Shown here piece by piece: positions 28,258 to 58,611 of a stretch of 64,000 bases of DNA. The stretch spans positions 434,001 to 498,000 of the forward strand of contig NZ_JAUSZL010000002.1 of the NCBI RefSeq assembly GCF_030817535.1, in the 5' to 3' direction. Made by a program: the position numbers and the translations under genes. The notes under the pieces were generated by a model. That model was not told the origin of the DNA, did not search any database, and saw only the letters and a list, made by a program, of their open reading frames with translations. The stretch is from Streptomyces sp. V3I8. Lineage in GTDB: Bacteria; Actinomycetota; Actinomycetes; Streptomycetales; Streptomycetaceae. Positions within the stretch are counted from its first letter, which is position 1, and every line of letters begins with the position of its first letter.

Positions 28258-28872
28258 TCAGATGCCGAACTCCGCGGGCGACAGGCCGAGCGTGGTGCAG
28301 GCGTCGCGGATGACGTACTGCTCGGACGCCTCGAAGTGTCCGTCGGCGCCCGCCACCACCATGCCCGTCTGGATGACCGCGCGGGCCTCCGCCGGCTTCT
28401 TGGCCGCCTTGGCGATGTCCCGCAGCGCCTCGGCCTTGCCCTGCTCGAAGTTGCCGGTGAGCCGGTCCACGTGCTGGTTGAAGCGCTGGCGGAGCTGGTC
28501 CGCCGGGAAGTTCTGCAGGACTTCGTTGCTGACGATCAGCTCCTCCACGCGCTGCCTCTCCGCCGGCTCGACCCGTCCGTCGGCCGCCGCCACCAGCGCG
28601 CACATGGCCATGCTGGCGTCCCGGTAGGCCCCGCTCTTGAGCTCGGTCTTGACCGACGCGAGCTGGGACTTGAACAGCCCGATCAGCTGGGCCTTGGAGC
28701 CGCCGCCGGAGGACGAGCCGGACGCGTGGCCGCCGTGCTGCGCCTGCCCGGCGGGGCCGTGTCCCTGTCCGGCGCCGTATCCCTGCCCGGAGGCATGTCC
28801 CTGCCCTGACCCTCCCCTGGCGCCCTGGGACTGCTGGAGGTTCTTGGCCTGGTCCTTGAGCTTGTCCCACAT
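28258..28872 (-). CDS. TerB-type tellurite resistance protein
   Basis: A 204-residue cytosolic protein. Residues 1-60 are a Gly/His/Gln-rich disordered stretch (SGQGHASGQGYGAGQG); residues 75-204 form a helical TerB domain (MAMCALVAAADGRVEPAERQ and MVVAGADGHFEASEQ, two acidic loops likely to bind metal). TerB is part of general stress/tellurite systems in Streptomyces. ATG 28872 follows GAGGTGG. No other ter genes are adjacent, although a TerC-like DUF475 protein lies 6 kb away. Confidence 0.87.
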   Translation of the reverse strand: MWDKLKDQAKNLQQSQGARGGSGQGHASGQGYGAGQGHGPAGQAQHGGHASGSSSGGGSKAQLIGLFKSQLASVKTELKSGAYRDASMAMCALVAAADGRVEPAERQRVEELIVSNEVLQNFPADQLRQRFNQHVDRLTGNFEQGKAEALRDIAKAAKKPAEARAVIQTGMVVAGADGHFEASEQYVIRDACTTLGLSPAEFGI

Positions 28873-29023
28873 CGCCACTACTGCCACCTCGGCTTCTGCT
28901 GATACCTGTGCGCGGTCCGTCCGTTGAACGGTTGCCGCGTCCGGAGAGGTTCCCGAATGGCAAAGGTAACGTAAAAAGATCATGCGCAAGGCGGATCGGC
29001 CAGGTCTCGGCGGAGCCGCCCGC

Positions 29024-29581
29024 TCACCCGACGGGCGCCAGGACCGACGGGCGGCCGCCCAGCGCCTCGGAGAACCGGTCGGTGACCTGCGCCAGGGCCT
29101 CGGCGGCGCCCGGTGCGACGGTCAGCGTGCCGTCCGGCCCGGCGGTGATGTCCTTGTCGAGGGTGAACCAGCCCTGGACGATGTGCGCGGCCCCCATGGA
29201 GCTGAGGACCGGGCGCAGCGCGTAGTCGATGGCCAGCACGTGGGCCGTGCTGCCGCCGGTGGCGAGCGGCAGCACCGTCTTGCCGGTCAGCGCGTACTGC
29301 GGGAGCAGGTCGAGCAACGACTTGAGCAGCCCCGAGTAGGCGGCCTTGTAGACGGGGGTGCCGATCACCACTCCGTCCACCCGGTCGAACAGCGCGGTGG
29401 CCTCGACGACGGCCGGGTGCCGGAAGTCGGCGCCGAGCAGGGCCTCCGGGGGCAGGGTGCGTGCCTCCAGGGAGATGACGTCGTGGCCCTGGTCCCGGAG
29501 CCGGTCGTCCAGGTGGCGCAGAAGTCGTGCGGTGCGGGAGGTGGCCGAAGGGCTTCCGGAGACGGACAGGATGGCGGCCAT
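29024..29581 (-). CDS. NADPH-dependent FMN reductase (SsuE/MsuE type)
   Basis: A 185-residue flavodoxin-fold reductase. The phosphate-binding segment is SVSGSPSATSRTARLL at the N-terminus, with GTPVYKAAYSGLLKSLLDLLP and PLATGGSTAHVLAIDYALRP, the last typical of SsuE-family enzymes. It supplies reduced FMN to two-component monooxygenases; the two LLM oxygenases upstream in the same operon are the natural partners. Last gene of the ten-gene leftward operon that begins at 40090, 115 bases after the hydrolase gene. Confidence 0.9.
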   Translation of the reverse strand: MAAILSVSGSPSATSRTARLLRHLDDRLRDQGHDVISLEARTLPPEALLGADFRHPAVVEATALFDRVDGVVIGTPVYKAAYSGLLKSLLDLLPQYALTGKTVLPLATGGSTAHVLAIDYALRPVLSSMGAAHIVQGWFTLDKDITAGPDGTLTVAPGAAEALAQVTDRFSEALGGRPSVLAPVG

Positions 29582-29696: not shown

Positions 29697-30479
29697 TCAC
29701 CAGGTGCTGCTCTCCACGGTGATCAGGGGCACCAGGTCGTTGCGCAGGGTCTCCAGGAAGGTGACGATCTCGGCCGCCACCGAACGGTGCTGCAGGTCGT
29801 TCAGCACGTCGTGGTGACCGCCGCGGACCACCGAGAGGCGGGCGCGCGGCAGGGACTTGGCGGTGCGGACGAGTGCGTCGTGGTCGGCGAGGGGGTCGGC
29901 GTCGCCGGTGAGGATCAGCACCGGGACGCCGGTCTCGCTGTCGTGGGCCGCCGCGAGCAGGGCGTCCGGCACCGCTTCGCCGAGTGAACCGCGGCGCACC
30001 CGGGCGTCGCCGGTGAGCGCGCCCCGGTGGGCGGGGCAGGACGTGCGGACGTCCAGCTCCTCCTCCCACGTGCCGCCGGCGGCCGCGCTGCGACCGGGGA
30101 GCCCGGCGAGGACGACGGCGTCCGGCGTCGTGGCGGCGGAGGCGTCGTCGCGGCCGAGGAGCGCGGCGACGGCGAGGGCACCGGTGTCCGCGCCCAGCAG
30201 CACCAGGGGGCGTACGACACCGTCCTCGCCCGCGGCCCCGTCGGCCGCTGCGGCCAACCGGGCGTCGAACGTGCGCAGCCGTGCCGCCAGGTCCCCGGCG
30301 TCGAGGTCCGGGGCGCCGAGGTCCGGGGCGTCGATGACGCGGACGCGGTAGGCGTCGGCGGCCAGGCGCCTGCCCAGCCGGTCGTAGGTGTCCCGGGTCT
30401 CCCCCCTGCCGGGCACCACGACGACGGTGGCGCGCGTGCGGAGGCCCCGGGGGGCGTGGTGGTCGGTGTACTCGGTCAT
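29697..30479 (-). CDS. Alpha/beta hydrolase of the organosulfur-type operon
   Basis: A 260-residue alpha/beta hydrolase. The nucleophile-elbow position is unusual: VLLGADTGALAVAALLG carries Asp-Thr where most esterases have Ser, as in haloalkane dehalogenase-like or thioesterase-like branches. A C-terminal LILTGDADPLADHDAL (acid) and GGHHDVLND (His) complete a triad. It sits one base downstream of the LLM gene stop, within the operon. It may release a product of the monooxygenases, for example from an ester or thioester. Function not established. Confidence 0.8.
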   Translation of the reverse strand: MTEYTDHHAPRGLRTRATVVVVPGRGETRDTYDRLGRRLAADAYRVRVIDAPDLGAPDLDAGDLAARLRTFDARLAAAADGAAGEDGVVRPLVLLGADTGALAVAALLGRDDASAATTPDAVVLAGLPGRSAAAGGTWEEELDVRTSCPAHRGALTGDARVRRGSLGEAVPDALLAAAHDSETGVPVLILTGDADPLADHDALVRTAKSLPRARLSVVRGGHHDVLNDLQHRSVAAEIVTFLETLRNDLVPLITVESSTW

Positions 30480-30480
30480 C

Positions 30481-31509
30481 TCAGACTCCTGCGGGTGCCG
30501 GTTCGGTCGCGGGCTTCCAGCCCAGGGCGGGTGCCACCTCGGTCGCGATGAGTTCGAGGGCCCGGATGGCGGTGTCGTGGTCGGGGACCGCGGGGTTGAA
30601 CTGGGCGATCAGGTCGGTCGCCAGGGGCAGCACCTTCTCCTGCCGCAGCTGCGCGACGATCTCCTCCGCCGAGCCGTGGAAGCAGTGGAACCGGCGCAAC
30701 GCCTCGTCCAGGCCCAGGCCCTTGGGGAAGGCGCCGCCCTCGGCCATCCGCAGTGCCGCCCGGTGGACGTCGTCACCGATGTGCCGCAGTGCCGTGCGCC
30801 GGTCCCGCGCCGGGAACAGGAACCGGGACAGCCCGATCCGCGGGCGGCGGGGCCGGTCCCAGGCGTCCAGGTACGCGTCGGCCCACGGTCGTTGCACCTC
30901 GTCGGTCGGTGCGTCGAAGCCGTACGCGGCGCGGTTGAGCAGCAGGTTCGAGCCGCCCGCCGCCGCGTGCCGGGCGCCGGGTCCGCTGAAGACGCCCTGC
31001 CAGATCCGGTCGGAGAAGTCCCCCGGCGCGGGCTGGACGCGGAAGCCGGGCGTACGCACCTCCTGGCCGGCCAGCGCCTCGCGGAGCACGGTGAGGTTCT
31101 CGGTGGTCGACTCGCGCCTGCGGGCCGGGTCCTGGCCGAAGGCGGCGTACTCCACCTCGCTGTAGCCGCTGCCGACACCGACCTCCACGCGGCCGCCGCT
31201 GAGGGTGTCGACGACGGCGACGTCCTCGGCGAGGCGGACCGGGTCCTCCAGCGGCAGGACCGTGATGGCCGTACCGAGACGGATGCGGGTGGTCCGCGCG
31301 GCGGCGTGGGCGAGGAACGTCCAGGGTGAGGACAGGCCTCCGCCGCTCGCGGGGACGTGGTGCTGGGCCACCCAGCCGACGTCGAAGCCGAGTTCGTCGG
31401 CGACGACGAAGAGTTCGGCCGCGTCGCGGTAGGTCCGGGCGGGGTCGTCGCCCCGGCCCTGCACATGGGTGAGGAAGCCGAGTCTGAAACGCGGCGTCTG
31501 GGTGGTCAT
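30481..31509 (-). CDS. FMN-dependent luciferase-like monooxygenase (CE1758-like)
   Basis: A 342-residue LLM flavoprotein: RLGFLTHVQGRGDDPARTYR, GFDVGWVAQHHVPASGG, RLGTAITVLPLEDPVRLAEDV and VGVGSGYSEVEY. The pattern resembles the CE1758 family, which normally pairs with an FMN reductase like the one encoded at 29024-29581. It probably oxidises a small organic substrate with reduced FMN and oxygen. Position between an FAD monooxygenase gene and the hydrolase gene fits a catabolic operon. Substrate unknown. Confidence 0.87.
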   Translation of the reverse strand: MTTQTPRFRLGFLTHVQGRGDDPARTYRDAAELFVVADELGFDVGWVAQHHVPASGGGLSSPWTFLAHAAARTTRIRLGTAITVLPLEDPVRLAEDVAVVDTLSGGRVEVGVGSGYSEVEYAAFGQDPARRRESTTENLTVLREALAGQEVRTPGFRVQPAPGDFSDRIWQGVFSGPGARHAAAGGSNLLLNRAAYGFDAPTDEVQRPWADAYLDAWDRPRRPRIGLSRFLFPARDRRTALRHIGDDVHRAALRMAEGGAFPKGLGLDEALRRFHCFHGSAEEIVAQLRQEKVLPLATDLIAQFNPAVPDHDTAIRALELIATEVAPALGWKPATEPAPAGV

Positions 31510-31561: not shown

Positions 31562-33325
31562 TCACGGTCCGGCGCTGCCCACCGCGACGAGCCCCGGCAG
31601 ACCGGTGTCGTGGTGACCGCCGCCGCCCAGCACCCGGTCGAGGACGGCGCCGGCGCCCGCGTCGGGAAGTGCGGTGCCGCGCCAGGCGACGTGCTGGTCG
31701 GGGCGTACGAGGACGTTGCCGGTGCCGTAGACCGCGCGGGCCTGCGGGTGGGTGAGGTGGATCACGGTGAACGGGAGTGCCCTGGCCGTGGCCTGTGCGA
31801 CGAAGGCCTCCTCGACGGCACGGTCCTCGGTGAGGACGAGCAGGGCGAGCGAGGTGCCGAGGCGGTCGTGGAGTGTGCCGCCGTACGGGTCGACGTGGCC
31901 GTCGGGGGCGCGGTGGCCCGGTCGCGGGTCGTCCTCGTAGACGTCCGCGCGCCAGCGGGGTTCGGAGTCGAGCTGGCCGGGTTCGTACCAGATGGCGCTC
32001 GACGCGTCGTAGCGCTCGTCGAAGGTGACACCCGTCGCCGGGACGCGGTCGCGGCCCAGCCGTGCGCCGATCTCCGCGCGGCGCCGCACGGCCTCGGGGC
32101 CGAGATCCGCGTCGTCGGGGATGCCGCCGCGGCGGATCCCGTCGAGCGTCGACTGGGTGCGCCGCGCCCGCTGCAGGGAGTGGTCGGCGACCCGCCAGTT
32201 GTGCCTGCGGCGCTCCTCGTCGTAGGAGGTGAGAAGGGACCGGGGGGCGTGGCCGCGGATCACCGCGGCCAGTTTCCAGCCGAGGTTGACCACGTCGCCG
32301 AAGCCCTCCCCCAGGTTGCCGCCGGGGGTACGCACATGGGCGGCGTCGCCGGCGAGCAGCACCCGGCCGCGGTGGAAGGTCTCGGCGATACGGGTGGCGT
32401 GGTAGAAGGTCGTCGCCGAGACCAGTTCGAGGTCGAGGTCGAATCCGAACGCGGCCCGGCCGATCTCCAGCAGTTCGTCCTCGGCGGGCTCGTACGCGAG
32501 CGGGTACGGCCCGGCGTAGATCCGCCATTCACGGGTGCTCACGGCGGCGAGGAAGCCGGAGGCCTTGTGGTTGACGACGATGTTGCTGCCGCTCGGCGCG
32601 GCGCCGACCCGGTCGCTGATGTCGCCGGTGCGGACGATGAGCCGCAGCCGCTTCTCGGTGGCGTGCTCGCCCTCGCGGGTGATGCCGGCCAGCCGCCGGG
32701 TGGTGCTGCGCCCGCCGTCGGTGCCGAGTACGTAGGCGGCCCGGACAGTGCGCCGTTCGCCGCCGGCCACCTCGACGACCTCGGCGTCGACGCCGTCCTC
32801 GTGCTCGCGCAGGGCCCGCAGTTCCCAGCCGCCCGCGACGCCGACGCCCTGTTCCGCCAGGCGGTCGAGGAAGACCTGCTGGAGTACCGTCTGCGGTCGG
32901 CGCAGGGCCTCCTCGGACGCGTACGGCGTCGTGCCGTCCCGCGGACCCGCGCCGCCCCGCGAGGTGAACGGCGGGCGCGGCACCGGGACCAGTTCGTGCC
33001 CGGTCAGGGAGGTCACCAGCCTGGTGCCCCGGTTCCACTCCGGGGGGTAGGTCCAGGCGTCCCGGATGCGCTGGAGCAGTCCCCAGCGGCGGAAGTGCTC
33101 CACCACGCGCGGGGTGTGTCCCATCGCGCCGGCCCGCACCAGTGTCGCGGTGCGGGCGCGGTCGACGACGGCGACCCGGACGCCGCGGGCGGTCAGTTCG
33201 ACCGCCGCGGAGAGGCCTACGGGGCCCGCGCCGACGATCAGCACGTCCACCTCGGCCGGCGGGGTGGCGACGGGGAACCGGACCGTGTGGACGTCGCGCC
33301 CGCCCGTCACCGACAGTTCGCTCAT
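31562..33325 (-). CDS. FAD-dependent aromatic hydroxylase-type monooxygenase
   Basis: A 587-residue class A flavoprotein monooxygenase of the PheA/TfdB/MhpA type. The FAD-binding motif is VDVLIVGAGPVGLSAAVEL, the DG motif is VLGTDGGRSTTRRLAG, and the GD motif is GRVLLAGDAAHVRTPGGNLGEG; a thioredoxin-like C-terminal domain follows. ATG 33325 has a GAGGG site and lies 10 bases after the stop of the upstream LLM gene. The family hydroxylates phenolic rings, suggesting that the imported substrate contains an aromatic group, or that the enzyme acts on another activated compound. Confidence 0.9.
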   Translation of the reverse strand: MSELSVTGGRDVHTVRFPVATPPAEVDVLIVGAGPVGLSAAVELTARGVRVAVVDRARTATLVRAGAMGHTPRVVEHFRRWGLLQRIRDAWTYPPEWNRGTRLVTSLTGHELVPVPRPPFTSRGGAGPRDGTTPYASEEALRRPQTVLQQVFLDRLAEQGVGVAGGWELRALREHEDGVDAEVVEVAGGERRTVRAAYVLGTDGGRSTTRRLAGITREGEHATEKRLRLIVRTGDISDRVGAAPSGSNIVVNHKASGFLAAVSTREWRIYAGPYPLAYEPAEDELLEIGRAAFGFDLDLELVSATTFYHATRIAETFHRGRVLLAGDAAHVRTPGGNLGEGFGDVVNLGWKLAAVIRGHAPRSLLTSYDEERRRHNWRVADHSLQRARRTQSTLDGIRRGGIPDDADLGPEAVRRRAEIGARLGRDRVPATGVTFDERYDASSAIWYEPGQLDSEPRWRADVYEDDPRPGHRAPDGHVDPYGGTLHDRLGTSLALLVLTEDRAVEEAFVAQATARALPFTVIHLTHPQARAVYGTGNVLVRPDQHVAWRGTALPDAGAGAVLDRVLGGGGHHDTGLPGLVAVGSAGP

Positions 33326-33335
33326 GTCGCGGCCC

Positions 33336-34676
33336 TCAGTGGTCCGCGAGGCTGGGCTCGCGGGTGTTGCGGTTGGCGGGGACCGGCAGGCCGAGGTTGC
33401 CGCGCAGGGTGTCGGCCTCGTACTCGGTGCGGAACAGTCCGCGCTTCTGGAGGATCGGCACGACACCGTCGACGAAGAGTTCGAGGTCGTCGTTGTTGCG
33501 GAAGGCGAGGTTGATGCCGTCGAAGGTGCCGGCGTCGAACCACTTCTCGATGGTGTCGGCGACGGTCCCGGGCGCCCCGACGAACGGTGAGCGGCGGAAC
33601 TCACTTACAGACTCCGCCACTTGACGCAGTGTCAGCTTTTCTGCCTTGGCCCGCTCGATCAGCTTGGCCGCGCCGGTCCTGCCACCCTTCTCGGCGAGGT
33701 GCGCCACGTCCGGGAACGGTGCGTCGAGGTCGTGCCCGCTGAAGTCGTACGCGCCGAAGGAACGGCCGAGGAGCGCGAGGTTGCGGCCGAAGTCGTTGTC
33801 CTCGTCGAAGATCTCCCGCTCGCGGCGCCGGGCCGCCTCGTCGGTGGCCGCGACGATCGGACCGCCATGGATGAAGATCTTGATGTGCTCGGGGTCGCGG
33901 CCGTACGAGGCGGTGCGCTTCTTGATGTCGGCGTAGTACTCCTGCGCCTGCTCCAGTGAGCCGCCCGGCGCGTAGATGCCCTCGGCGACCTGCGCGGCGA
34001 GGTCGCGGCCCTCCTCGGAGACGCCGGCCTGGAAGATCACCGGCTGGCCCTGCGGCGAGCGGGAGAGGTTGAGCGGTCCGGCGACCTTGAAGTGCTCGCC
34101 CTCGTGGTTGAGTTCGTGCAGTTTGCTGGGGTCGAGGAAGACGCCGCGCTCCACGTCGGCCGGGAACGCGTCGTCCTCGTAGGAGTCCCACAGGCCGCGG
34201 GCGACCTGGACGAACTCCAGCGCCCTGCCGTAGCGGGTGGCGTAGTCGAGGTGCTCGTCGAGCCCGAAGTTCCGTGAGGTCCCGGTGTCGAAGCTGGTCA
34301 CCACGTTCCAGCCGGCCCGGCCGCCGCTGATGTGGTCGAGGGAGGCGAACCGGCGGGCGAGGTTGAAGGGTGAGTTGTACGTCGAACTCGCCGTGCCGAC
34401 CAGGCCGATGTGCCGGGTGTGGGTGGCGACCGCCGACAGCAGCGTCAGCGGTTCGAGGCGGTTGAGGTAGTGCGACGGGTAGGTGGAGTTGATGAACTGG
34501 CTGTCGACGACGAACAGGGCGTCGAACAGGGCGTGTTCGGCCGCCTGGGCCTGCTTGATGTAGTAGCCGATGTCGATGCTGGCGTTCTTCGCGACGCGCG
34601 GGTCCTTCCAGAGCCCGTGCTGGCCGGGGCCGCCGACGCCGTAGGGGTGCAGCGCGAGGTGGATCGTGCGGGACAT
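33336..34676 (-). CDS. LLM-class monooxygenase of the NtaA/SnaA/DszA family
   Basis: A 446-residue flavin-dependent monooxygenase: LNRLEPLTLLSAVATHTRHI, ARRFASLDHISGGRAGWNVV, GHDLDAPFPDV and VGAPGTVADTIEKWFD. The family includes nitrilotriacetate, dibenzothiophene sulfone and alkylated-sulfur oxygenases that need a separate FMN reductase. It is the first enzyme gene after the ABC importer, which suggests it attacks the imported compound first. A hexamer array (34693-34716) lies 17 bases upstream of the ATG. Two conserved upstream neighbours are the ATP-binding subunits. Confidence 0.9.
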   Translation of the reverse strand: MSRTIHLALHPYGVGGPGQHGLWKDPRVAKNASIDIGYYIKQAQAAEHALFDALFVVDSQFINSTYPSHYLNRLEPLTLLSAVATHTRHIGLVGTASSTYNSPFNLARRFASLDHISGGRAGWNVVTSFDTGTSRNFGLDEHLDYATRYGRALEFVQVARGLWDSYEDDAFPADVERGVFLDPSKLHELNHEGEHFKVAGPLNLSRSPQGQPVIFQAGVSEEGRDLAAQVAEGIYAPGGSLEQAQEYYADIKKRTASYGRDPEHIKIFIHGGPIVAATDEAARRREREIFDEDNDFGRNLALLGRSFGAYDFSGHDLDAPFPDVAHLAEKGGRTGAAKLIERAKAEKLTLRQVAESVSEFRRSPFVGAPGTVADTIEKWFDAGTFDGINLAFRNNDDLELFVDGVVPILQKRGLFRTEYEADTLRGNLGLPVPANRNTREPSLADH

Positions 34677-34763: not shown

Positions 34764-35645
34764 TCAGGCGTGCAGCAGCGCGCGCAGACGGTCGCGTTCG
34801 GACCGGTCGGCCGGTCCCGTCCGCAGGGTGGGGGCGGAGCCGACGAGCAGGCGGGTGTACACGTGCCGGGGACCGGTGATGACGTCGCGGGCGGTACCGA
34901 CCTCGACGAGTTCGCCCTGGTAGAGCACCGCGATGCGGTCGGCGATCCCGGCGACGGACCCCAGGTCGTGCGAGATGAAGACGAGGGCCGTGCCCGCGGC
35001 GCGCAGGTCCTTGAGGATCTGCAGGATCTGGACGCGGTTGGCGGAGTCGAGGGCGCTGACCGGCTCGTCGAGGATGATCAGCTTCGGCTCGGTGACCAGG
35101 GCGCGGGCCACCGCCACACGCTGGCGCTGGCCGCCGGAGAGTTCGCCCGGCAGACGGTCGAGCAGGTCCTCGGAGAGCTGGACGCGGGCGAGGAACGTAC
35201 GGGCCCGGCCGGCCGCCTCCTGACGCGGGACGCCCTGGACGAGCAGCGGCTCGATCAGGGAGTCCTCGACGGTGAGGTCCGGGTCGAGGCTGCGCAGCGG
35301 GTCCTGGAAGACGTACTGGACGACGCCGCGGCGGCGCAGACGGCGCCACTGGCGGCTGTTGTACGCGCCCACGTCCTCGCCGCCGATGACGATCCGGCCG
35401 GCCGAGGGGCGCACGAGGCCGAGGACGGTGCGGGCGAAGGTGGACTTGCCGGATCCCGTCTCGCCGATGATGCCGACGGTCTCACCGGGAGTGACGCTCA
35501 GCGAGACGCCGTGCAGGGCGCGGCGGCGCTGCCGGCGCGGTCCGTAGTGCACCTCCAGGCCGGTGACCTCAAGGACCGCGTCCTCACCTGTGTCGGTGTC
35601 GGTGTCGGTGTCGGTGGGACTCTGTGGCGTGTGTCCGGTGGTCAC
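34764..35645 (-). CDS. Oligopeptide-type ABC transporter ATP-binding protein (DppF-like)
   Basis: A 293-residue ABC ATPase. Walker A is GETGSGKS, the signature is LSGGQRQRVAVARAL, Walker B is KLIILDEPVSALD, and the switch His is FISHDLGSV. The C-terminal segment RHVYTRLLVGSAP is the oligopeptide-transporter tail. An Asp-Thr repeat at residues 11-19 is encoded by a tgtcgg array (35591-35614). GTG 35645 overlaps the stop of the DppD-like gene (GTGA). It pairs with that protein to drive the permease. Confidence 0.9.
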   Translation of the reverse strand: MTTGHTPQSPTDTDTDTDTGEDAVLEVTGLEVHYGPRRQRRRALHGVSLSVTPGETVGIIGETGSGKSTFARTVLGLVRPSAGRIVIGGEDVGAYNSRQWRRLRRRGVVQYVFQDPLRSLDPDLTVEDSLIEPLLVQGVPRQEAAGRARTFLARVQLSEDLLDRLPGELSGGQRQRVAVARALVTEPKLIILDEPVSALDSANRVQILQILKDLRAAGTALVFISHDLGSVAGIADRIAVLYQGELVEVGTARDVITGPRHVYTRLLVGSAPTLRTGPADRSERDRLRALLHA

Positions 35646-36559
35646 GATGTCTCCTGCGGCGTGAGGAACTTCTCCAGGCCGTAGCTCTCGTGCTCGGCGA
35701 TGAGCAACTTGGTGTACGCGTGGCGCGGGCGGTGGAGCACCTCGTGCGTCGTGCCCTGTTCCACCACCTCGCCCTCGCGCATGACGAGGACCTCGTCGCA
35801 CAGCTGGGCGACGACGGCCAGGTCGTGGGAGACGACCACCAGGGCGAGGCCGGTCTGTTCGCGCAGTTCGACGAGCAGGTCGAGGATCTCGGCCTGGACC
35901 GTGACGTCGAGCGCGGTCGTGGCCTCGTCGGCGATGAGGATCCGCGGATCGGCGGCGATCGCGGCGGCGATCAGGACGCGCTGGAGCATGCCTCCGGACA
36001 GCTCGTGGGTGTACTGGCCGTAGACGAGTTCCGGGTCGCGCAGCTGGACCGCCCGGAGCAGTTCGACGGCACGGTGGCGTGCCGCGCGCCTCTTGAGCCC
36101 CGTCTTGACCCGGACGACCTCGGCGATCTGCGCGCCCACCCGGATGGAGGGGTTGAGGTAGGACGACGGGTCCTGGAAGACCGCGCTGATCGTGGCCCCG
36201 CGGAGCGCCGTCCACCGCTGGGGGGTGAGGGTCGCGATGTCGGTGCCGGTGATCTCGATCGAGCCGGCCGAGACCTCGAAGTGCGGGGGCAGGATGCCCA
36301 GCGTGGCCCGGCAGGTGAGGGTCTTGCCGCTGCCCGACTCGCCGACGATGCCGACCGTTTTGCCGGGGGTGAGTTCGAAGCTCACCCCGTGGACGATCTC
36401 GCGGTCGGTGACGCGGTCGCTGATGCGCACGTCACGCACGGTGAGGACCGGTGCGGCCGGCGCGGCCGACGAGGCCGACGAGGCCGGCGCGGGGGGCTTC
36501 TCGGCACTCAGGGTGGTGCCGGGAACCGCGTTGTCCGACAGTTGGGACAGTGTCGCCAT
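35642..36559 (-). CDS. Oligopeptide-type ABC transporter ATP-binding protein (DppD-like)
   Basis: A 305-residue ABC ATPase: Walker A GESGSGKT, signature [15 protein letters not shown], Walker [14 protein letters not shown], and the oligopeptide-family C-terminal [15 protein letters not shown] 36559 is chosen because GGAGGT lies five bases ahead; a GTG at 36562 would overlap the permease stop by four bases and is equally compatible with coupling. About 35 Ala/Ser-rich residues precede the ATPase domain. Confidence 0.9.
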
Positions 36560-37452
36560 CACGCACCTCCGGTGGCTACGGGCTCGGGTTTGTCCAGGCG
36601 GTTGGCGCGTACCTTGCGGCGGTTGGCGAAGGCGCGTCCCGCTTCGCCGGAGACGTCACGGATCGCGTCGGCGAGCAGGTTGCTGGCCCAGACGGTGACC
36701 ATGATCAGCAGGGCGGGGGCCAGCGGCGCCCACGGCTGGTAGCTGAGGTAGCCGAGGTCGGAGGCGAGCAGGCCGCCCCAGGTGGGCGCGGGCGGCTGCA
36801 CGCCGATGCCCAGGAAGGTGAGGCTGGAGACGATGATGAAGCCGACGCCGATGGTCTGGGCGAGGGCGACGGCGATGGGCGGGAGCACCTTGACCCATAC
36901 GTGGCGTCGCACGATCCAGCCGACCGAGGCGCCGGAGACGATCGCCGCCTCCACGTACGGGGAGCGGGCGACGGCCAGGGTGGCGGCGCGGGCCACCCGG
37001 TAGAAGAGCGGCGAGACCAGGGCGCCCGTGACGAGCATGGCCTGGGTGATGCCGTTGCCCAGGAGGGCGATGACGGCGACCGCGAAGAGCAGGAACGGCA
37101 GGGCGACCAGGGTGTCGGCCAGGCGCAGGGTGATCCATTCGAAGGTCCGGCCGAGGTAGACCGACAGGATGCCCGGGATCGCGCCGACCACCAGGGCCAT
37201 CAGGGCCACTTCGAGGGAGCCGAGCACGCTGACGCGTGAGCCGTCCAGGAGTCGGCTGAAGGTGTCACGGCCGAGGTGGTCGGTGCCCAGCCAGTGGGCC
37301 CCGGAGGCCGCGGCGAGCGTGTTGTCGCTGGTGGCCAGCGGGTTCTGCGGTGCGAGCAGCGGTCCGAGGACGGCCAGCAGCGCGACGACGGCGAGGATGG
37401 CCACGGCGATCCGGCCGGATGTCAGGGTGAGGACGCGGCGCACCATGGTCAT
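36559..37452 (-). CDS. Oligopeptide-type ABC transporter permease (DppC-like)
   Basis: A 297-residue inner-membrane permease with about six helices. The N-terminal OppC-type segment GAHWLGTDHLGRDTFSRLLDG and the EAA loop (EAAIVSGASVGWIVRRHV) are diagnostic. ATG 37452 overlaps the stop of the DppB-like gene (ATGA) and follows a GGGGGG-type site. It forms the channel with the 342-residue permease encoded immediately upstream. Confidence 0.92.
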   Translation of the reverse strand: MTMVRRVLTLTSGRIAVAILAVVALLAVLGPLLAPQNPLATSDNTLAAASGAHWLGTDHLGRDTFSRLLDGSRVSVLGSLEVALMALVVGAIPGILSVYLGRTFEWITLRLADTLVALPFLLFAVAVIALLGNGITQAMLVTGALVSPLFYRVARAATLAVARSPYVEAAIVSGASVGWIVRRHVWVKVLPPIAVALAQTIGVGFIIVSSLTFLGIGVQPPAPTWGGLLASDLGYLSYQPWAPLAPALLIMVTVWASNLLADAIRDVSGEAGRAFANRRKVRANRLDKPEPVATGGA

Positions 37453-38477
37453 ACCCCCCGCTGGGATGCCGGCGTGACACGGGCCAGCACCAGGTTGACG
37501 ATCAGGTTGAAGAGGACGACCAGCACGATCGACACGACCAGGACGCCCTGCACGGCCGGTACGTCGCCGGCCTGGGCCGAGTCGTTGGCGAACCGTCCGA
37601 AGCCCTGCAGGCCGAAAATCCATTCCGTGACGACGGAGGCGCCGACCAGTGCGGGGAACTTGAGCCCCAGGGTGGCAAGGGCCGGCCCGATGCCGTTGCG
37701 CAGCACATGGCCGAGGAAGATCCGGCGGGGACCCAGCCCTCGCACGACCGCGCCCGTCACGTAGTTCTCCCGGTAGGCCGCGACGAGGCTGCCGCGGAGC
37801 TGCCGGGCGACGTCCGCGACCACGTCGAAGCTGAGCGCGAGCGCCGGGAGCGTGATGTGGGCGAGCCACGGGCCGAAGCCCTGCTCCACCGGGATGTACC
37901 CGGCGGAGGGGAACACGTTCAGTCCCACGGCGAAGACCGCGACCAGCACGATGCCGACGACGAACGCGGGCATCACCGAGATCACGGTGACGAAGCCCGT
38001 GACGGACCGGTCGATCCAGGTCGTGCGCTTCAGGGCGGCGACCGTACCGAGGACGAAGCCGAGCACGACGCCGATGATCAGCGCGAACGTCGCGACGGAC
38101 AGGCTCACCCCCAGGCCCAGGCCGATGAGCGTGGAGATGTCGGCGCCGTTGGTCCAGCTGGTGCCGAGCTGTACGTGCAGGACGCCGGTGAACCAGTCCC
38201 AGTACTGGGTCAGGAAGGGCCGGTCCAGACCCCACTGGGCCTCGACCCGCTGGACCGCCTCGGGTGTCGCCTCCTCGCCCAGCTGGATCCGCGCCGGGCT
38301 GAGGCCGCTCATCGACCGCAGCGCGAACGTCACGAACGTCGCGAGCAGGAAGACCGGCACGAAGATCGCGACCGACCGGGCCACGGTCACCAGGAGACGG
38401 CCGAGCGTGTGCCGCACCCTGGTCACAGCGACCCCGCGACGGCGGGCAGGCGGGGCCTGTTCCGCGGTCGTCGTCAT
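37449..38477 (-). CDS. Oligopeptide-type ABC transporter permease (DppB-like)
   Basis: A 342-residue permease: an N-terminal helix (about residues 35-55), the periplasmic loop with LDRPFLTQYWDWFTGVLHVQ, and the EAA-type loop YVTGAVVRGLGPRRIFLGHVL. ATG 38477 has a GAGAGGGG site. It is 41 bases downstream of the binding-protein gene. The upstream frame remains open for several hundred codons only because of GC bias; that part is antisense noise over the binding-protein gene. Confidence 0.92.
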   Translation of the reverse strand: MTTTAEQAPPARRRGVAVTRVRHTLGRLLVTVARSVAIFVPVFLLATFVTFALRSMSGLSPARIQLGEEATPEAVQRVEAQWGLDRPFLTQYWDWFTGVLHVQLGTSWTNGADISTLIGLGLGVSLSVATFALIIGVVLGFVLGTVAALKRTTWIDRSVTGFVTVISVMPAFVVGIVLVAVFAVGLNVFPSAGYIPVEQGFGPWLAHITLPALALSFDVVADVARQLRGSLVAAYRENYVTGAVVRGLGPRRIFLGHVLRNGIGPALATLGLKFPALVGASVVTEWIFGLQGFGRFANDSAQAGDVPAVQGVLVVSIVLVVLFNLIVNLVLARVTPASQRGV

Positions 38478-38518: not shown

Positions 38519-40090
38519 TCAGCTGCCGGAGATGGTCACGCCGGTCCAGTCGATGTGGGCCGGGTTCTTCGGCAGGTCGGAGATCGACTTGCTCTTGGCG
38601 ATGAGGTTCGGCTGGGAGTAGGTGAAGACGAGGGCCTTGCTCTCGAGTCCCGCCCGGGTCGCGGCCTGCAGGGTCCGCGCGTAGTGCGGCGACTCCAGCG
38701 GCGTCTTGCGCACCTTGGCGATGGCGGCCTCGAAGCCGTCCGGCTCGTACGGCGTGCTGAGGTTCAGCGGGCCGTTCGGACCGAAGTGGGCGGTGAGGGT
38801 CTGCGCGGCGGAGTCGCGGCCGGTGGTCCCGTACAGCGAGAACGTCAGGTCCTTCGCGAAGAAGGGGGTGGCCCAGTTCTTGTCGATCTTGATCGTGACC
38901 TTGATGCCGACCTTCGCGAGCTGCGACTGGACGATCTCCGCCTGGGGGTCCTCCGCCGGGATGACCAGGTTCAGCTTGATGTCGCCGGACTTGTAGCCCG
39001 CGTCGGCGAGGAGCTTCTTCGACTTCGCCGGGTCGTAGGGGTAGGCGTCCTCGGACTTCGGGTCGTAGGCCACGTACCCCTTCGGGAACGGCTGGTCGGT
39101 CACCTCGCCGTAGCCGAAGGTCAGTTTGTCGACGAACTCCTCGCGGTTCACCGCGTGCCGTACGGCGTCGACGACCTTGTCGTCGTCGAAGGGCGCCTTG
39201 TTGACGTTGAGGCTGAGGTTGGAGGCGTTGAAGCCCGGCTGCACGAAGACGTCGAGGCCGGCCTTCTTGGCGGCGGAGGCCTGGCTCGGGTCCAGGTCGG
39301 CGAAGTTGTAGACGCCGGTCTGCAGGCCGGAGACGACGGTGGAGGCGTCGGGGGCGGAGGTCAGCTCGACGTTGTCGATGTGGATGTTCTTCGCGTCCCA
39401 GTAGTCCGGATTCTTCTTCAGCACCGCCTTGGTGCCCGGCACCAGCTGGGTGACGGTGAACGGGCCCGCGCCGACCGGGTTCTGGTCCAGCTTCCCGGGG
39501 TTCTTCGCCGCCTTGGGGCTGGCTACCTGCAGCACGCGCTGGCCGAGGAGCTGGGGTATCTGGTAGTCGACCTGACTGAGGTGCAGGACGGCGTCCAGGC
39601 CGTCGGCGTCCACCGACTCGATGGAGCTCAGGTCGCCGAAGAGTGCGGAGTTCTTCTGCTTCTGCGCCCGCTCGATGGCCGCCTTGACCGCGGCGCCGTC
39701 GACCGGCTCGCCGTCGCTGAACTTCAGGCCGGAGCGCAGGTGGAAGGTGATCTCGTCGCCCTTGTCGTTGTACTCCCAGCTCTTCGCCAGGTCGGGGACG
39801 GCCTTGCCGGTCTCGTCGGTACGGGTCAACGAGGCGTAGGTGAGCGCGAGTTCGCGGAACTGCGCGCCGCTGCCGCCGACGACCGGGTCCCAGTGGGTCG
39901 GGAAGTACGAGGAGGTCCACTTCAGCGTGGAGCCGCCGCCCGCGGCGGCGGTGTCCCCGCCGCAGGCGCTCAGGACGGGGGTGAGCACGGCCGCGAGCAC
40001 GGTCCCGAGGGCTGCGGCCCGCAGGCGGCCCGCCCGTCGGGACGAACGGGGGTCCGGTCCGGGGCGGCGGGTGATGAGGTGAGCGGGCAT
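38519..40090 (-). CDS. Oligopeptide/opine-type ABC transporter substrate-binding lipoprotein
   Basis: A 523-residue family 5 extracellular solute-binding protein. The signal peptide ends in the lipobox LSAC with the lipidated Cys at residue 43. SBP_bac_5 signatures are DLAKSWEYNDKGDEITFHLR and SDGEPVDGAAVKAAIERA. First gene of the ten-gene operon. The leader region upstream (40091-40583) contains a promoter, a cysteine-containing leader peptide and a hairpin, but no other gene. The family binds peptides, opines, nickel complexes or other small organics; with the oxygenases downstream I infer an organosulfur compound. Confidence 0.9.
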   Translation of the reverse strand: MPAHLITRRPGPDPRSSRRAGRLRAAALGTVLAAVLTPVLSACGGDTAAAGGGSTLKWTSSYFPTHWDPVVGGSGAQFRELALTYASLTRTDETGKAVPDLAKSWEYNDKGDEITFHLRSGLKFSDGEPVDGAAVKAAIERAQKQKNSALFGDLSSIESVDADGLDAVLHLSQVDYQIPQLLGQRVLQVASPKAAKNPGKLDQNPVGAGPFTVTQLVPGTKAVLKKNPDYWDAKNIHIDNVELTSAPDASTVVSGLQTGVYNFADLDPSQASAAKKAGLDVFVQPGFNASNLSLNVNKAPFDDDKVVDAVRHAVNREEFVDKLTFGYGEVTDQPFPKGYVAYDPKSEDAYPYDPAKSKKLLADAGYKSGDIKLNLVIPAEDPQAEIVQSQLAKVGIKVTIKIDKNWATPFFAKDLTFSLYGTTGRDSAAQTLTAHFGPNGPLNLSTPYEPDGFEAAIAKVRKTPLESPHYARTLQAATRAGLESKALVFTYSQPNLIAKSKSISDLPKNPAHIDWTGVTISGS

Positions 40091-40393
40091 CTCGTTCTTC
40101 CTGAGGCGGGCCCCGGCCGTTGCCGGGGCGGAAGGAGCGGAGGGTCCGGCCCCTCCCGTACGGGAACGTCGACTCGGCCCCTGTACGGGCAGCGCGGACA
40201 CACCGGCGAAAGCACCGGCGCGCACTCGGGGCGCGCGGCACTCGGGGCAGGGGTGCGCGGAGCTGCGGGACTACAGGGATGCGGAACCGTGGGAGTCGAC
40301 GGGCTCGCGGGGACGGGCCGGGAGGCGAAGAGGGCGTGCGACGGAGCGCCGGGCACGGAAAGGGAGGGCGCAGGGGCCGGCGCGGCACGGTCG

Positions 40394-40412
40394 GGCACTG
40401 GGAGCCAGTGCC
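40394..40412 (-). terminator. Attenuator-like hairpin in the ABC operon leader
   Basis: GGCACTGG and CCAGTGCC form a perfect eight-base stem with a three-base loop, 42 bases after the leader-peptide stop and about 300 bases before the substrate-binding protein gene. It is the clearest hairpin in the leader and is a candidate attenuator element. Alternative pairings were not computed. Confidence 0.45.
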
Positions 40413-40454
40413 GGGGCAGTGGTCAGGCGTCTGCGGGCCGGGAACGGCGGAGGG

Positions 40455-40529
40455 TCAGCGACAGAGTGCGCTGCTGGTGCGCCGCAGGTCCACGTAGCGG
40501 CACACCACACCGGGGTGCGTCGTGAGCAT
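40455..40529 (-). CDS. Cysteine-containing leader peptide of the ABC/monooxygenase operon
   Basis: A 24-codon frame beginning MLTTHPGVVCRY and ending VDLRRTSSALCR. This ending matches the small 'putative leader peptide' class seen upstream of sulfur-metabolism operons in actinomycetes (HVDLxRxSSALC pattern, from memory). Two Cys codons, one two codons before the stop, could make ribosomes pause when cysteinyl-tRNA is short. A -10-like CAGGAT ends six bases before the ATG, so the transcript is probably leaderless. It lies 364 bases upstream of the operon's first gene, with a hairpin between. Confidence 0.7.
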   Translation of the reverse strand: MLTTHPGVVCRYVDLRRTSSALCR

Positions 40530-40535
40530 GGTGTC

Positions 40536-40583
40536 ATCCTGGAGGCTGCCGCAACCGACTGTCAATGGACACCAATTGGTGTC
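40536..40583 (-). promoter_or_regulatory. Promoter and palindromic operator of the ABC/monooxygenase operon
   Basis: On the minus strand TTGACA (40565-40560) and CAGGAT (40541-40536) are 18 bases apart. Directly upstream, GACACCAATTGGTGTC (40568-40583) is a perfect 16-base palindrome two bases from the -35 box. That placement suits an activator or a repressor; the Rrf2 or another sulfur regulator could be the ligand-binding protein, which is inference. Confidence 0.65.
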
Positions 40584-40683
40584 TCATTGGTCGGACGGGA
40601 CGGGACCGCAGATCACAGGCATGCCGCGCGGCGGCGATCGCCCGGCGGTGGTCCAGCGGGGCGGGCGGTTGCCCGGCGAGGGC

Positions 40684-41646
40684 TCAGCGGGTGGCCGGGT
40701 GTGTCGCCGCCTCGTCCGGGTGCAGCCACACCGGTCCGCTGGCCGTGTCCAGCCGTACCGCGCACGGGGGTGGCCACGGACCCCGTGCGAGCAACCGCCG
40801 CTCCGGGTCGGTCAGGCTGCGGTAGTGCTCCAGCGCGTCCGCCGGGGAGAGCGGGGCGGGGACCGGCAACGGCCCGGGACCCAGGGCCTCGACGGCGGCG
40901 GCGTACTCCGCGAAGGGCCGCCACCCGGGGACGACGCGGTACTTCCCCGGGGTCCGGACGAGCAGCGTCGGCAGCGCGTACCGGTACCCGCCCTCGGCGG
41001 TCTCCTTGGCCGCACCGGGATGCGGGGAACGGCCGGGACGCGGGGAGCCGTCCCGCGCGGCCAGCACCTCGGCCACCGGGCGGCGTGCCTCCAGCCGGTC
41101 GGCGCGCACCTGCTCCAGCACCGCACCGGACGCGGCATCGGCCGCGAGGCGCCACGGATCGAGTCCCGGCACACCCCGTACCGCGGACAGCGCCCACTCG
41201 GTGGTGTCGGCGGGCTCGCCGAGCACGAAGACGGTCTCCCGCAGCCGCCGCAGCACCCGCTCGGCCACCGTCTCGCCCTGCAGGGCGGCGGCCTTGGCGA
41301 CGAGCGAGGCGGGCCAGGAGCCGGCCGGCATCCGGCTGAGCCGCACGGCCCGGGGGGCCAGGGTGTGCGAGCCGACCTCCTCGACGTAGCGTGCGTACCA
41401 GGCGGTCTCCGCCGCCGGGTCGGGCGGCGCGTCGTCACCGTCGTCGAAGAGGATCGCGTACGCCCGCCGCCAGTGGACCCGGCCGGCCAGCGCCGCCCGC
41501 AACGCGCGGAAGACAGGCTCGGATCCCCAGGCCCAGGGGCACAACGGATCGGTGTACTCCACCACTTCGACCATTTCGGCCGCCCGGGCCGCTTCGACCA
41601 CCCCGGCCGCTTCGGTCAGGGGCGTCGGCTCCGGCGTTCCCGTCAC
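40684..41646 (-). CDS. DsbA-family thioredoxin-fold protein (FrnE-like)
   Basis: A 320-residue thioredoxin-like protein. The active-site position reads EYTDPLCPWAWGSEP, where the second Cys of the usual CxxC is replaced (CPWA), as in 2-hydroxychromene isomerase/FrnE relatives, so it is probably not a dithiol oxidase. There is no signal peptide, so it acts in the cytosol. The GTG at 41646 overlaps the stop of the Rrf2 gene (GTGA); an internal ATG before VEVVEYTD (near 41574) would remove the unconserved N-terminus. Co-transcribed with, and perhaps regulated by, Rrf2. Confidence 0.82.
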   Translation of the reverse strand: MTGTPEPTPLTEAAGVVEAARAAEMVEVVEYTDPLCPWAWGSEPVFRALRAALAGRVHWRRAYAILFDDGDDAPPDPAAETAWYARYVEEVGSHTLAPRAVRLSRMPAGSWPASLVAKAAALQGETVAERVLRRLRETVFVLGEPADTTEWALSAVRGVPGLDPWRLAADAASGAVLEQVRADRLEARRPVAEVLAARDGSPRPGRSPHPGAAKETAEGGYRYALPTLLVRTPGKYRVVPGWRPFAEYAAAVEALGPGPLPVPAPLSPADALEHYRSLTDPERRLLARGPWPPPCAVRLDTASGPVWLHPDEAATHPATR

Positions 41647-42077
41647 GCGGCGCCCCTGTGGACCGACCCTTCCACAACTCCCCTGCCCAGCAACGAGGTC
41701 AGGGTCACCCCGCCCAGGACCGCCGCCGCACCGGCCTCGACCTCCCGCCACACATCGGGCAGCCCTGTCGCGGGCCCCGGGTAGTCGAGACCGTCCAGGG
41801 GTTCCCCACGCAGGGTGATGAGTTCGCCGTCGACGGCGCGCGTCACATCCAGCAGGGTGATCTCCCCGGCGGGTCTGCCGAGCCAGTAACCGCCCTCGCA
41901 GCCGCGCTGGCTGCGCACCAGGCCCGCTCTGCGCAACTCCCCCACCACGGACTTCAGGAAGCGGAACGGAATCTCCTGCGAGGAGGCCATGGCTTCACAG
42001 GTGAGCGGACGGGAAGGTTCGCGGGCGAGTTCCAGCAGCGCCCTCATGGCGTAGTCCGCCTTCGCGGAAATATGCAT
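41643..42077 (-). CDS. Rrf2 family transcriptional regulator
   Basis: A 144-residue Rrf2 winged-helix regulator: MHISAKADYAMRALLELA, IPFRFLKSVVGELRRAGLV and RSQRGCEGGYWLGRPAGEI. Only one Cys lies in the wing, so the three-Cys iron-sulfur set of IscR/NsrR is missing and the protein resembles CymR-like sulfur regulators more. Start 42077 is by homology; no clear ribosome site. It faces a cupin gene across a 138-base divergent gap with inverted repeats, and lies 1.5 kb from the sulfur-type operon it might control. Confidence 0.87.
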   Translation of the reverse strand: MHISAKADYAMRALLELAREPSRPLTCEAMASSQEIPFRFLKSVVGELRRAGLVRSQRGCEGGYWLGRPAGEITLLDVTRAVDGELITLRGEPLDGLDYPGPATGLPDVWREVEAGAAAVLGGVTLTSLLGRGVVEGSVHRGAA

Positions 42078-42166
42078 GCGCACATCATGCCGCAGGAGCG
42101 GGTCCACGCGCGGATCTTCGGGCACTTGTTTCCTACGTTGCGGGAACATTGCCGCAGGTGAAAGCT

Positions 42167-58500: not shown

Positions 58501-58539
58501 GAAGGGCTCCCGCGAGTCATGTCCTCGCGGGAGCCCTTC
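58501..58539. terminator. Strong bidirectional terminator
   Basis: GAAGGGCTCCCGCGAG-tcatgtc-CTCGCGGGAGCCCTTC: a perfect 16-base stem. It lies 72 bases beyond the sodF stop and just after the decayed carboxylase genes, so it can serve both strands. Confidence 0.88.
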
Positions 58540-58611
58540 GTCGTACCGCCTGCCGGTGAAGGTTGAGAAGACGATCACGAGCAGGACGTCCGTGGAGACG
58601 CGGCTACGGCG

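Follow-up and report, generated by a model that had tools for sequence, protein, structure and literature searches.

A 24-codon frame on the minus strand of a 64,000-nucleotide stretch of Streptomyces sp. V3I8 (the window, meaning the whole stretch analysed) is, as judged by comparison of related loci, a genuine leader peptide. It is probably a leaderless, cis-acting leader on which the ribosome reports the supply of cysteinyl-tRNA, with a stall at a UGU codon preventing premature termination in the spacer that precedes a ten-gene importer and monooxygenase operon. The cysteine or sulfur reading of the leader is well supported by association, and the near-universal ending of such frames in UGU, the rarer cysteine codon, suggests how the sensor works. 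This preference of the closing cysteine for UGU is new here, and so is a second layer at this operon, a conserved palindrome next to the -35 box with an Rrf2-type regulator gene close by. A literature search turned up no title dealing with Streptomyces leaders that carry this motif or with a UGU rule, most subscription papers being beyond reach and absence thus unproven. The table of eight leaders in the S. lividans reannotation holds none with the motif of the window leader (PMC8079986).

Conservation of the leader, its promoter and its operon

Relatives of the binding protein of the operon number 224, of which the best 80 were retained. Nineteen of these come from other genera and 61 are Streptomyces-type loci; four of the latter (L055, L058, L076 and L085), with fewer than 262 bases upstream, were left out, leaving 57 testable loci. 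The leader is present in 56 of the 57, which together with the window give the 57 rows used below. The peptide is near-identical (MLTTHPGVVCRYVDLRRT(S/C)SALCR) and stands directly behind the promoter and ahead of the orthologous operon, so that the conservation in relatives on which the sequence-only reading depended was indeed found. Cysteines occupy positions 10 and 23, and also position 19 in 31 of the 57 rows; the window leader has no run of cysteine codons, only two isolated cysteines. In L075 a deletion disrupts the leader frame some 330-390 bases before the binding-protein gene while the operon is intact, a natural loss-of-leader case. Two orthologous leaders lie on annotated plasmids, with no feature beneath them in the (incomplete) gene table; the operon beside the plasmid orthologue that was looked up is annotated, unlike its leader. 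The elements of the locus, all on the minus strand, are:

40560..40565, minus strand: -35 box TTGACA, from the sequence (TTGAC in 57/57 rows)
40536..40541, minus strand: -10 box CAGGAT, ending 6 bases 5' of the ATG, at 18-base spacing to the -35 box
40455..40529, minus strand: leader frame, 24 codons, MLTTHPGVVCRYVDLRRTSSALCR plus stop (ATG at 40529; UGA stop)
40091..40454, minus strand: spacer, C-rich and G-poor, by composition a possible Rho-loading (rut) region
38519..40090, minus strand: ABC substrate-binding protein (SBP_bac_5), first structural gene
37449..38477, minus strand: ABC permease 1
36559..37452, minus strand: ABC permease 2
35642..36562, minus strand: ABC ATPase 1
34764..35645, minus strand: ABC ATPase 2
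33336..34676, minus strand: NtaA/DmoA family flavin (LLM) monooxygenase, nearest solved structure YtnJ
31562..33259, minus strand: FAD monooxygenase, RebC-like, approximate start, in part of the relatives only
30481..31509, minus strand: second luciferase-like (LLM) monooxygenase, in part of the relatives only
29697..30479, minus strand: alpha/beta hydrolase
29024..29581, minus strand: NADPH-dependent FMN reductase SsuE (216.7 bits, above the cut-off of 164.05)

The minus-strand promoter of the sequence-only reading (TTGACA, 18 bases, CAGGAT) is as described there, and its 24-codon frame, hairpin and distances are all borne out by the sequence. The first structural gene starts at 40090, 364 bases past the leader stop. 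As tabulated by script for the window and the leader loci from the best 80 of 224 relatives, the spacing between -35 and -10 boxes is 18 in 52 of 57 rows, and in 56 of 57 the -10 box lies only 6-7 bases ahead of the aligned frame, so a leaderless transcript is predicted. A promoter scan reported nothing, CAGGAT matching three of the six bases of TATAAT where the scan demands four; Rfam at gathering thresholds gave no family at the leader region. The same geometry was examined in a family sample of the genus comprising 119 leaders. In 90 of these, one or more ATGs lie in frame within 120 bases, 118 in total. Of the 118, 45 have a -10-like hexamer whose end is 6 bases upstream, and the remaining 39 offsets gather 0 to 8 hexamers each, apart from a second peak, without explanation, of 28 of 118 at offset 35. 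Counted by leader, the hexamer lies 5-8 bases upstream in 59 of 119, versus 2 to 10 in five displaced ranges, and a -35-like box (4/6) accompanies it in 26.

The operon likely scavenges sulfur, as its gene content suggests. Its first monooxygenase is 45% identical to YtnJ, which we take to be CmoJ of the S-alkyl-cysteine salvage pathway. A pathway of this kind with CmoJ has been described (PMC10863075), in a text where the name YtnJ does not occur. In an annotated relative an O-acetylhomoserine sulfhydrylase adjoins the operon. The proposal of the sequence-only reading that the importer and oxygenases serve sulfur scavenging fits both this identity and the SsuE score. Just past the operon lies a gene for a TerB-domain protein (28258-28989, minus strand), probably outside it because a match occurs only in L037 and L038, although some loci end too early. 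Elsewhere the window carries the sodF sRNA (RF02790, 92.8 bits, 58501-58589, minus strand).

The NF042934 family and its closing UGU codon

The two cysteine codons of the window leader are:

40461..40463, minus strand: codon 23, UGU (Cys), proposed sensing codon, TGT in 57/57 orthologous and 116/119 family leaders
40500..40502, minus strand: codon 10, UGC (Cys), within hairpin P1 (see below), TGC in 57/57

A match to known small leader peptides, for which the sequence-only reading had proposed a search, was obtained in part: the window leader resembles NCBIfam NF042934 (cis_reg_atten, 'putative leader peptide') with 23.2 bits and E 3.9e-5, below the family cut-off of 27 (22.8 bits in the genome search). 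With NF042934 it shares the C-terminal motif D-L-x-R ... A-x-C and the sulfur-gene context, and near the frame end it presents the motif D-(L/Y/F)-x-R-x3-(A/C)-x-C as CRYVDLRRTSSALCR. It differs in having YVDLRR in place of the usual HVDL(C)R, in its in-frame hairpins and in a probable operator of its own. All of 41 genomes of the genus have an NF042934 match (E <= 0.01), as do 110 of 148 genomes of the class (E <= 0.001), with 0 of 14 controls in either case; at E <= 10 the search also matches 10 of 14 control genomes, none over the cut-off.

Eleven leaders were found in the genome of the window itself at E <= 0.01, including that of the window, and a twelfth at E 0.086. With first genes chosen by codon composition for all twelve, nine of the ten further leaders at E <= 0.01 precede sulfur-linked genes, or 10 of 12 over all places. 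These genes comprise a cysteine dioxygenase with a rhodanese, a MoaD-like gene with CysM, a nitrite/sulfite reductase, SsuE, a sulfonate-type ATPase (below its model cut-off), a sulfurtransferase, three LLM monooxygenases and the window operon; the two other places have a GST-like gene and, behind the weak twelfth leader, a ROK gene. The cysteine-type leader peptide ahead of sulfur genes postulated in the sequence-only reading is thus upheld by the conserved frame, the leaderless geometry and the sulfur-linked context. The weak twelfth match (L012, C2 5713261-5716305, SRRYVDLRRQGTATC, TGT) is the sole other YVDLRR core among the twelve places. The leader on the GST side (L007) and L003 are divergent and about 0.5 kb apart (C2 about 1336300-1339900), L007 ending SSAY-stop with no terminal cysteine. 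In L001 (own genome, C2 2505322-2508378) and L144, a leader of the kind found before assimilation genes precedes cysteine dioxygenase, which degrades cysteine; that a catabolic gene has such a leader argues against a single rule of expression when cysteine is scarce for every member. Among 30 more leaders from the genus, 28 were sorted by the genes that follow them into seven groups, with one member of each scanned: CysM-type PLP enzyme (7), sulfatase (7), LLM (6), cysteine dioxygenase (4), nitrite/sulfite reductase (2), and two more, one without a Pfam hit and one unscanned. The genes of the sulfatase group (L126 and six relatives, one member scanned) lie behind NF042934 leaders, several of the VTLVERRHVDLVRVASAIC type.

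The codon sample was drawn from the better-scoring matches listed (110 loci), and the UGU sample consists of 122 loci minus two cut by contig ends and minus L007, hence 119. The cysteine that closes the motif is encoded by TGT in 116 of these 119 family leaders (80 of 82 distinct peptides). Earlier cysteines in the same leaders use TGC in 68 of 73 cases and TGT in 5, later ones TGC in 36 of 42, and the background level of TGT, taken from long frames with high GC3 in the orthologue loci, is 202 of 1394 (14.5%). A Fisher test of closing versus earlier cysteine codons gives p 8e-42, a value that overstates independence because the rows are related. The excess does not come from search selection, since protein models are blind to codons. 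Across the class, TGT closes 31 of 31 leaders whose codon was located (25 from the NF042934 search, three of these from the genus of the window, and 6 from the A3 search described below); of 38 loci, six were unread and L239, at the same place as L004, was not located by script. UGU is decoded by tRNA-Cys via G-U wobble.

In other genera, a looser pattern revealed related leaders upstream in 13 of the 19 loci among the best 80 of 224 relatives, chance-like pattern matches in L105, L112 and L115 being excluded from the count, and found none in six of the 19. By eye from codon lists, TGT is also the closing codon of all 13. A home-made leader model gave no confident match in 20 loci (these 19 and L075; best E 0.53). 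Twelve of the leaders end 1.47-1.97 kb before the binding-protein match, and that of Janibacter L099, Cys-rich and ahead of an orthologous operon, ends 220 bases before the gene. In L107, L110 and L111 an extra LLM gene lies between leader and binding protein (one match kept per gene and locus). A subtype LTxxRW(L/V)DxAR...C was seen in Actinokineospora, Amycolatopsis, Jatrophihabitans, Pseudonocardiales and Frankia (L089, L092, L095, L097, L098, L100, L102, L105, L107, L108, L110 and L111). None of four other-genus leaders tested (three of the subtype and L099) hit NF042934. In A3, a set of 12 peptides, R-W, D, A-R and the final C are fixed throughout, and the A3 subtype appears rare in the class, since a class-wide search matched 8 of 148 genomes, some of the matches resembling NF042934 leaders.

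Further other-genus leaders with the motif precede sulfurtransferase orthologues and share LTKRRAVDLCR, two of them (L241 and L244) having poly-Cys ends. The genes behind these two are 70% identical to the gene behind own-genome leader L008, and the nine compared are 69-78% identical. From this context we infer that leaders of the L241/L244 type are the cysA2-type mycobacterial leaders (PMC4633059). A cysteine-dependent response in M. smegmatis has been reported (Canestrari 2020, as cited in PMC9031893 and PMC13236596). The mycobacterial poly-Cys short frames resemble the window leader in their leaderless start, which for the window leader is predicted from promoter geometry, and in cysteines near the end and sulfur genes downstream (PMC4633059), whereas in the window leader the two cysteines stand apart and a long C-rich spacer follows.

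RNA structure, the palindrome and the spacer

Predicted structures and the probable transcriptional control elements are:

40477..40505, minus strand: hairpin P1 in the frame, 9 pairs, 11-base loop (6/9 pairs never vary)
40456..40473, minus strand: hairpin P2 at the frame end, 5 pairs, UGU codon in the loop (4/5 pairs never vary)
40568..40583, minus strand: palindrome GACACC-AATT-GGTGTC, probable operator, just upstream of the -35 box
41643..42149, minus strand: Rrf2-family regulator, candidate owner of the palindrome (PF02082, 101.9 bits)
40684..41643, minus strand: DsbA/thioredoxin-like protein upstream of the leader (PF13743)
40394..40412, minus strand: 8-pair hairpin of the sequence-only reading, GGCACTGG-CTC-CCAGTGCC, present in the sequence and in the window fold
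40111..40128, minus strand: 7-pair hairpin ahead of the first gene's ribosome-binding site (window fold; positional signal)

The leader is constrained at the codon level. At 17 leader codons the amino acid is invariant, and at nine of these the codon too is identical across all 57 rows; the binding-protein genes from these loci have a fixed codon in 7 of 179 columns with an invariant amino acid. P1 and P2 cover several of the codon-invariant positions. In a structure alignment of 56 of the 57 rows (40 distinct; L053, with a 25-codon frame, was left out), pairing is kept in 98.8% of cells of the distinct rows and 10 of the 14 pairs of P1 and P2 are invariant. A single P1 pair changes in a compensatory way, from C-G to A-U, in two rows and is U-G in a third. 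P2 is not proven by covariation, because four of its five pairs are invariant and the remaining one varies between C-G and U-G. The covariation score is reached by 3 of 500 shuffles and the count of pairs changed on both sides by 47, and the structure slid by 3 columns likewise yields 2 such pairs. These covariation and shuffle tests thus weakly support P1. It also gives the clearest positional structure signal (mean z -1.59) in the 33 loci that entered this test and that of the ribosome-binding site, 24 of the 57 rows having been dropped. When the aligned leaders were folded together with 60 or 110 bases of downstream sequence, all pairs fell within the frame.

All 57 rows carry the palindrome, or a sequence close to it, just upstream of the -35 box, and 13 different cores occur. 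Its left arm is GACACC in 54 rows and GACATC in 3, and its right arm GGTGTC in 52, AGTGTC in 4 and AGTAGC in 1. In the genome of the window there are three exact sites, and 34 with at most one mismatch versus 24 for the reversed control, on which ground we rejected the palindrome as a regulon-wide operator. Among the best 80 of 224 relatives, the Rrf2 gene turned up in 54 of the 56 leader loci and in none of the 19 other-genus loci. The two leader loci lacking it are L060, with only 658 bases upstream, and L082, which has no Rrf2 or DsbA-like match. We infer that the Rrf2 protein binds the palindrome, a pairing somewhat opposed by L082, which keeps the palindrome without an Rrf2 match. An Rrf2-type gene near a sulfur operon recalls CymR, but at 60.1 bits against the CymR model NF047409 (cut-off 195) the gene does not encode CymR proper.

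The spacer ranges from 236 to 596 bases (median 316) and contains 47.9% C and 28.9% G. Over its first 200 bases the median C-G skew is 0.32, a value reached by 0.33% of 11400 random windows and by 0.46% of 2196 intergenic windows with strand ignored. The lowest spacer skew (0.184) is reached by 13.4% of the intergenic control windows, so C-richness is no proof of Rho action. In some family members spacers are far shorter, for instance 37-43 bases in two class-wide loci. No positional structure signal appeared directly past the leader stop in the 33 loci, and this, together with the excess of C over G, makes a terminator right behind the leader unlikely and a Rho-dependent end the preferred reading. 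For the mycobacterial cys leaders Rho was proposed, as a weak prediction, by Seliverstov and colleagues in 2005 (PMC1262725).

Mechanism, alternatives and significance

In the mechanism that we favour, a shortage of charged tRNA-Cys would stall the ribosome at the UGU read by wobble, two codons short of the stop, and the stalled ribosome together with the altered RNA fold would keep the transcript from ending in the C-rich, G-poor spacer, so that importer and oxygenases would be made. With cysteine plentiful, the ribosome would reach UGA and leave, and transcription would stop in the spacer. That this stop is made by Rho, the most likely agent, is the least certain step, about as apt to be wrong as right. 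Initiation would be under a second control, probably that of the Rrf2 regulator encoded nearby, acting on the palindrome beside the -35 box. Two counterpoints are L007, without a terminal cysteine, and L075, in which the frame is disrupted and the operon kept. The uORFC-8-2 motif before cysS of Rhodobacterales likewise has upstream-frame cysteine codons and a cysteine-related gene, but its cysteines are in tandem, UGC is dominant and an intrinsic terminator with a U-run follows (PMC8632094).

The peptide itself, and not only the cysteine codon, might stall the ribosome at UGU, with cysteine or a sulfur metabolite as the signal. We consider such a nascent-chain arrest rather doubtful, though it would account for residues that are not sensors: D and R occur in 119 of 119 family leaders and H in 116 of 119, even though few cysteine codons suffice for classical attenuation, and the A3 peptides keep their fixed residues as noted above. 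The invariance of D and R is partly built in, because most leaders were found by a model or pattern favouring those residues; the Cys-rich leaders of L099 and L105, found without requiring D or R, nonetheless have both. Against arrest, the poly-Cys versions suggest plain codon sensing. The likeness would be to TnaC of the E. coli tna operon, with its conserved non-sensor residues, stall near the stop and proposed Rho step (PMC10941005, PMC1262725); TnaC differs in responding to tryptophan and turning on tryptophan degradation (PMC10941005), and we claim no kinship of sequence. The frame could also be a small protein acting in trans, as its strongly conserved amino-acid sequence might imply, but this is the least credible of the alternatives, with many third codon positions frozen as well, a place before the operon that stays constant within Streptomyces, and many kinds of sulfur gene behind the family members.

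Other explanations place the decisive structure downstream. A stalled ribosome that frees the ribosome-binding site from pairing is the mechanism said to emerge from Canestrari's 2020 work on mycobacterial poly-Cys leaders (translational attenuation). Applied to the first gene here, it seems unlikely. A second structure signal does lie at -60 to -16 before that gene (mean z -1.05, 33 loci), the window fold lengthens the hairpin at 40111..40128 by pairing CUUCC with GGAAG in the ribosome-binding site, and spacers are short in part of the family. However, the site is not paired in excess of shuffled upstream sequence across the 33 loci (mean 0.328 versus 0.344; higher in 17 of 33), the spacer of these loci is long, at 236 bases or more, and alignment folds spanning the leader end short of the site. 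The sequence-only reading took the hairpin at 40394-40412 for the attenuator. The stem is present in the sequence and also forms in the predicted window fold, but a classical attenuator with this stem as intrinsic terminator is very improbable: by eye the hairpin is recognisable only in L036-L038 and the window, 40050-40750 holds no terminator-like site with a U-tract, and no positional structure signal follows the leader stop in the 33 loci. We therefore rejected it as a terminator. The cysteinyl-tRNA sensor with a stall at UGU remains our preferred reading.

At the scale of the family we put forward, tentatively, a class-wide actinobacterial cysteine regulon in which leader peptides would arrest the ribosome at one near-obligatory UGU, the stall being prepared by a conserved R-x-(H/Y/W)-(V/I/L)-D-x-x-R segment lying in the exit tunnel, with UGC passed and UGU sensing. 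If true, synonymous cysteine codons would differ in regulatory meaning and the leaders would be codon-specific arrest-peptide sensors, not ordinary starvation attenuators. With the UGU rule, the loose notion of 'cysteine attenuation' comes down to a test of one base: changing UGU to UGC should weaken the response with the peptide unchanged. The UGU and family data also tie the NF042934 leaders to the mycobacterial leaders already studied. The window leader, lying below the NCBIfam cut-off, is one that the curated threshold would miss, and through it the importer and oxygenases gain a suggested physiological role in sulfur scavenging.
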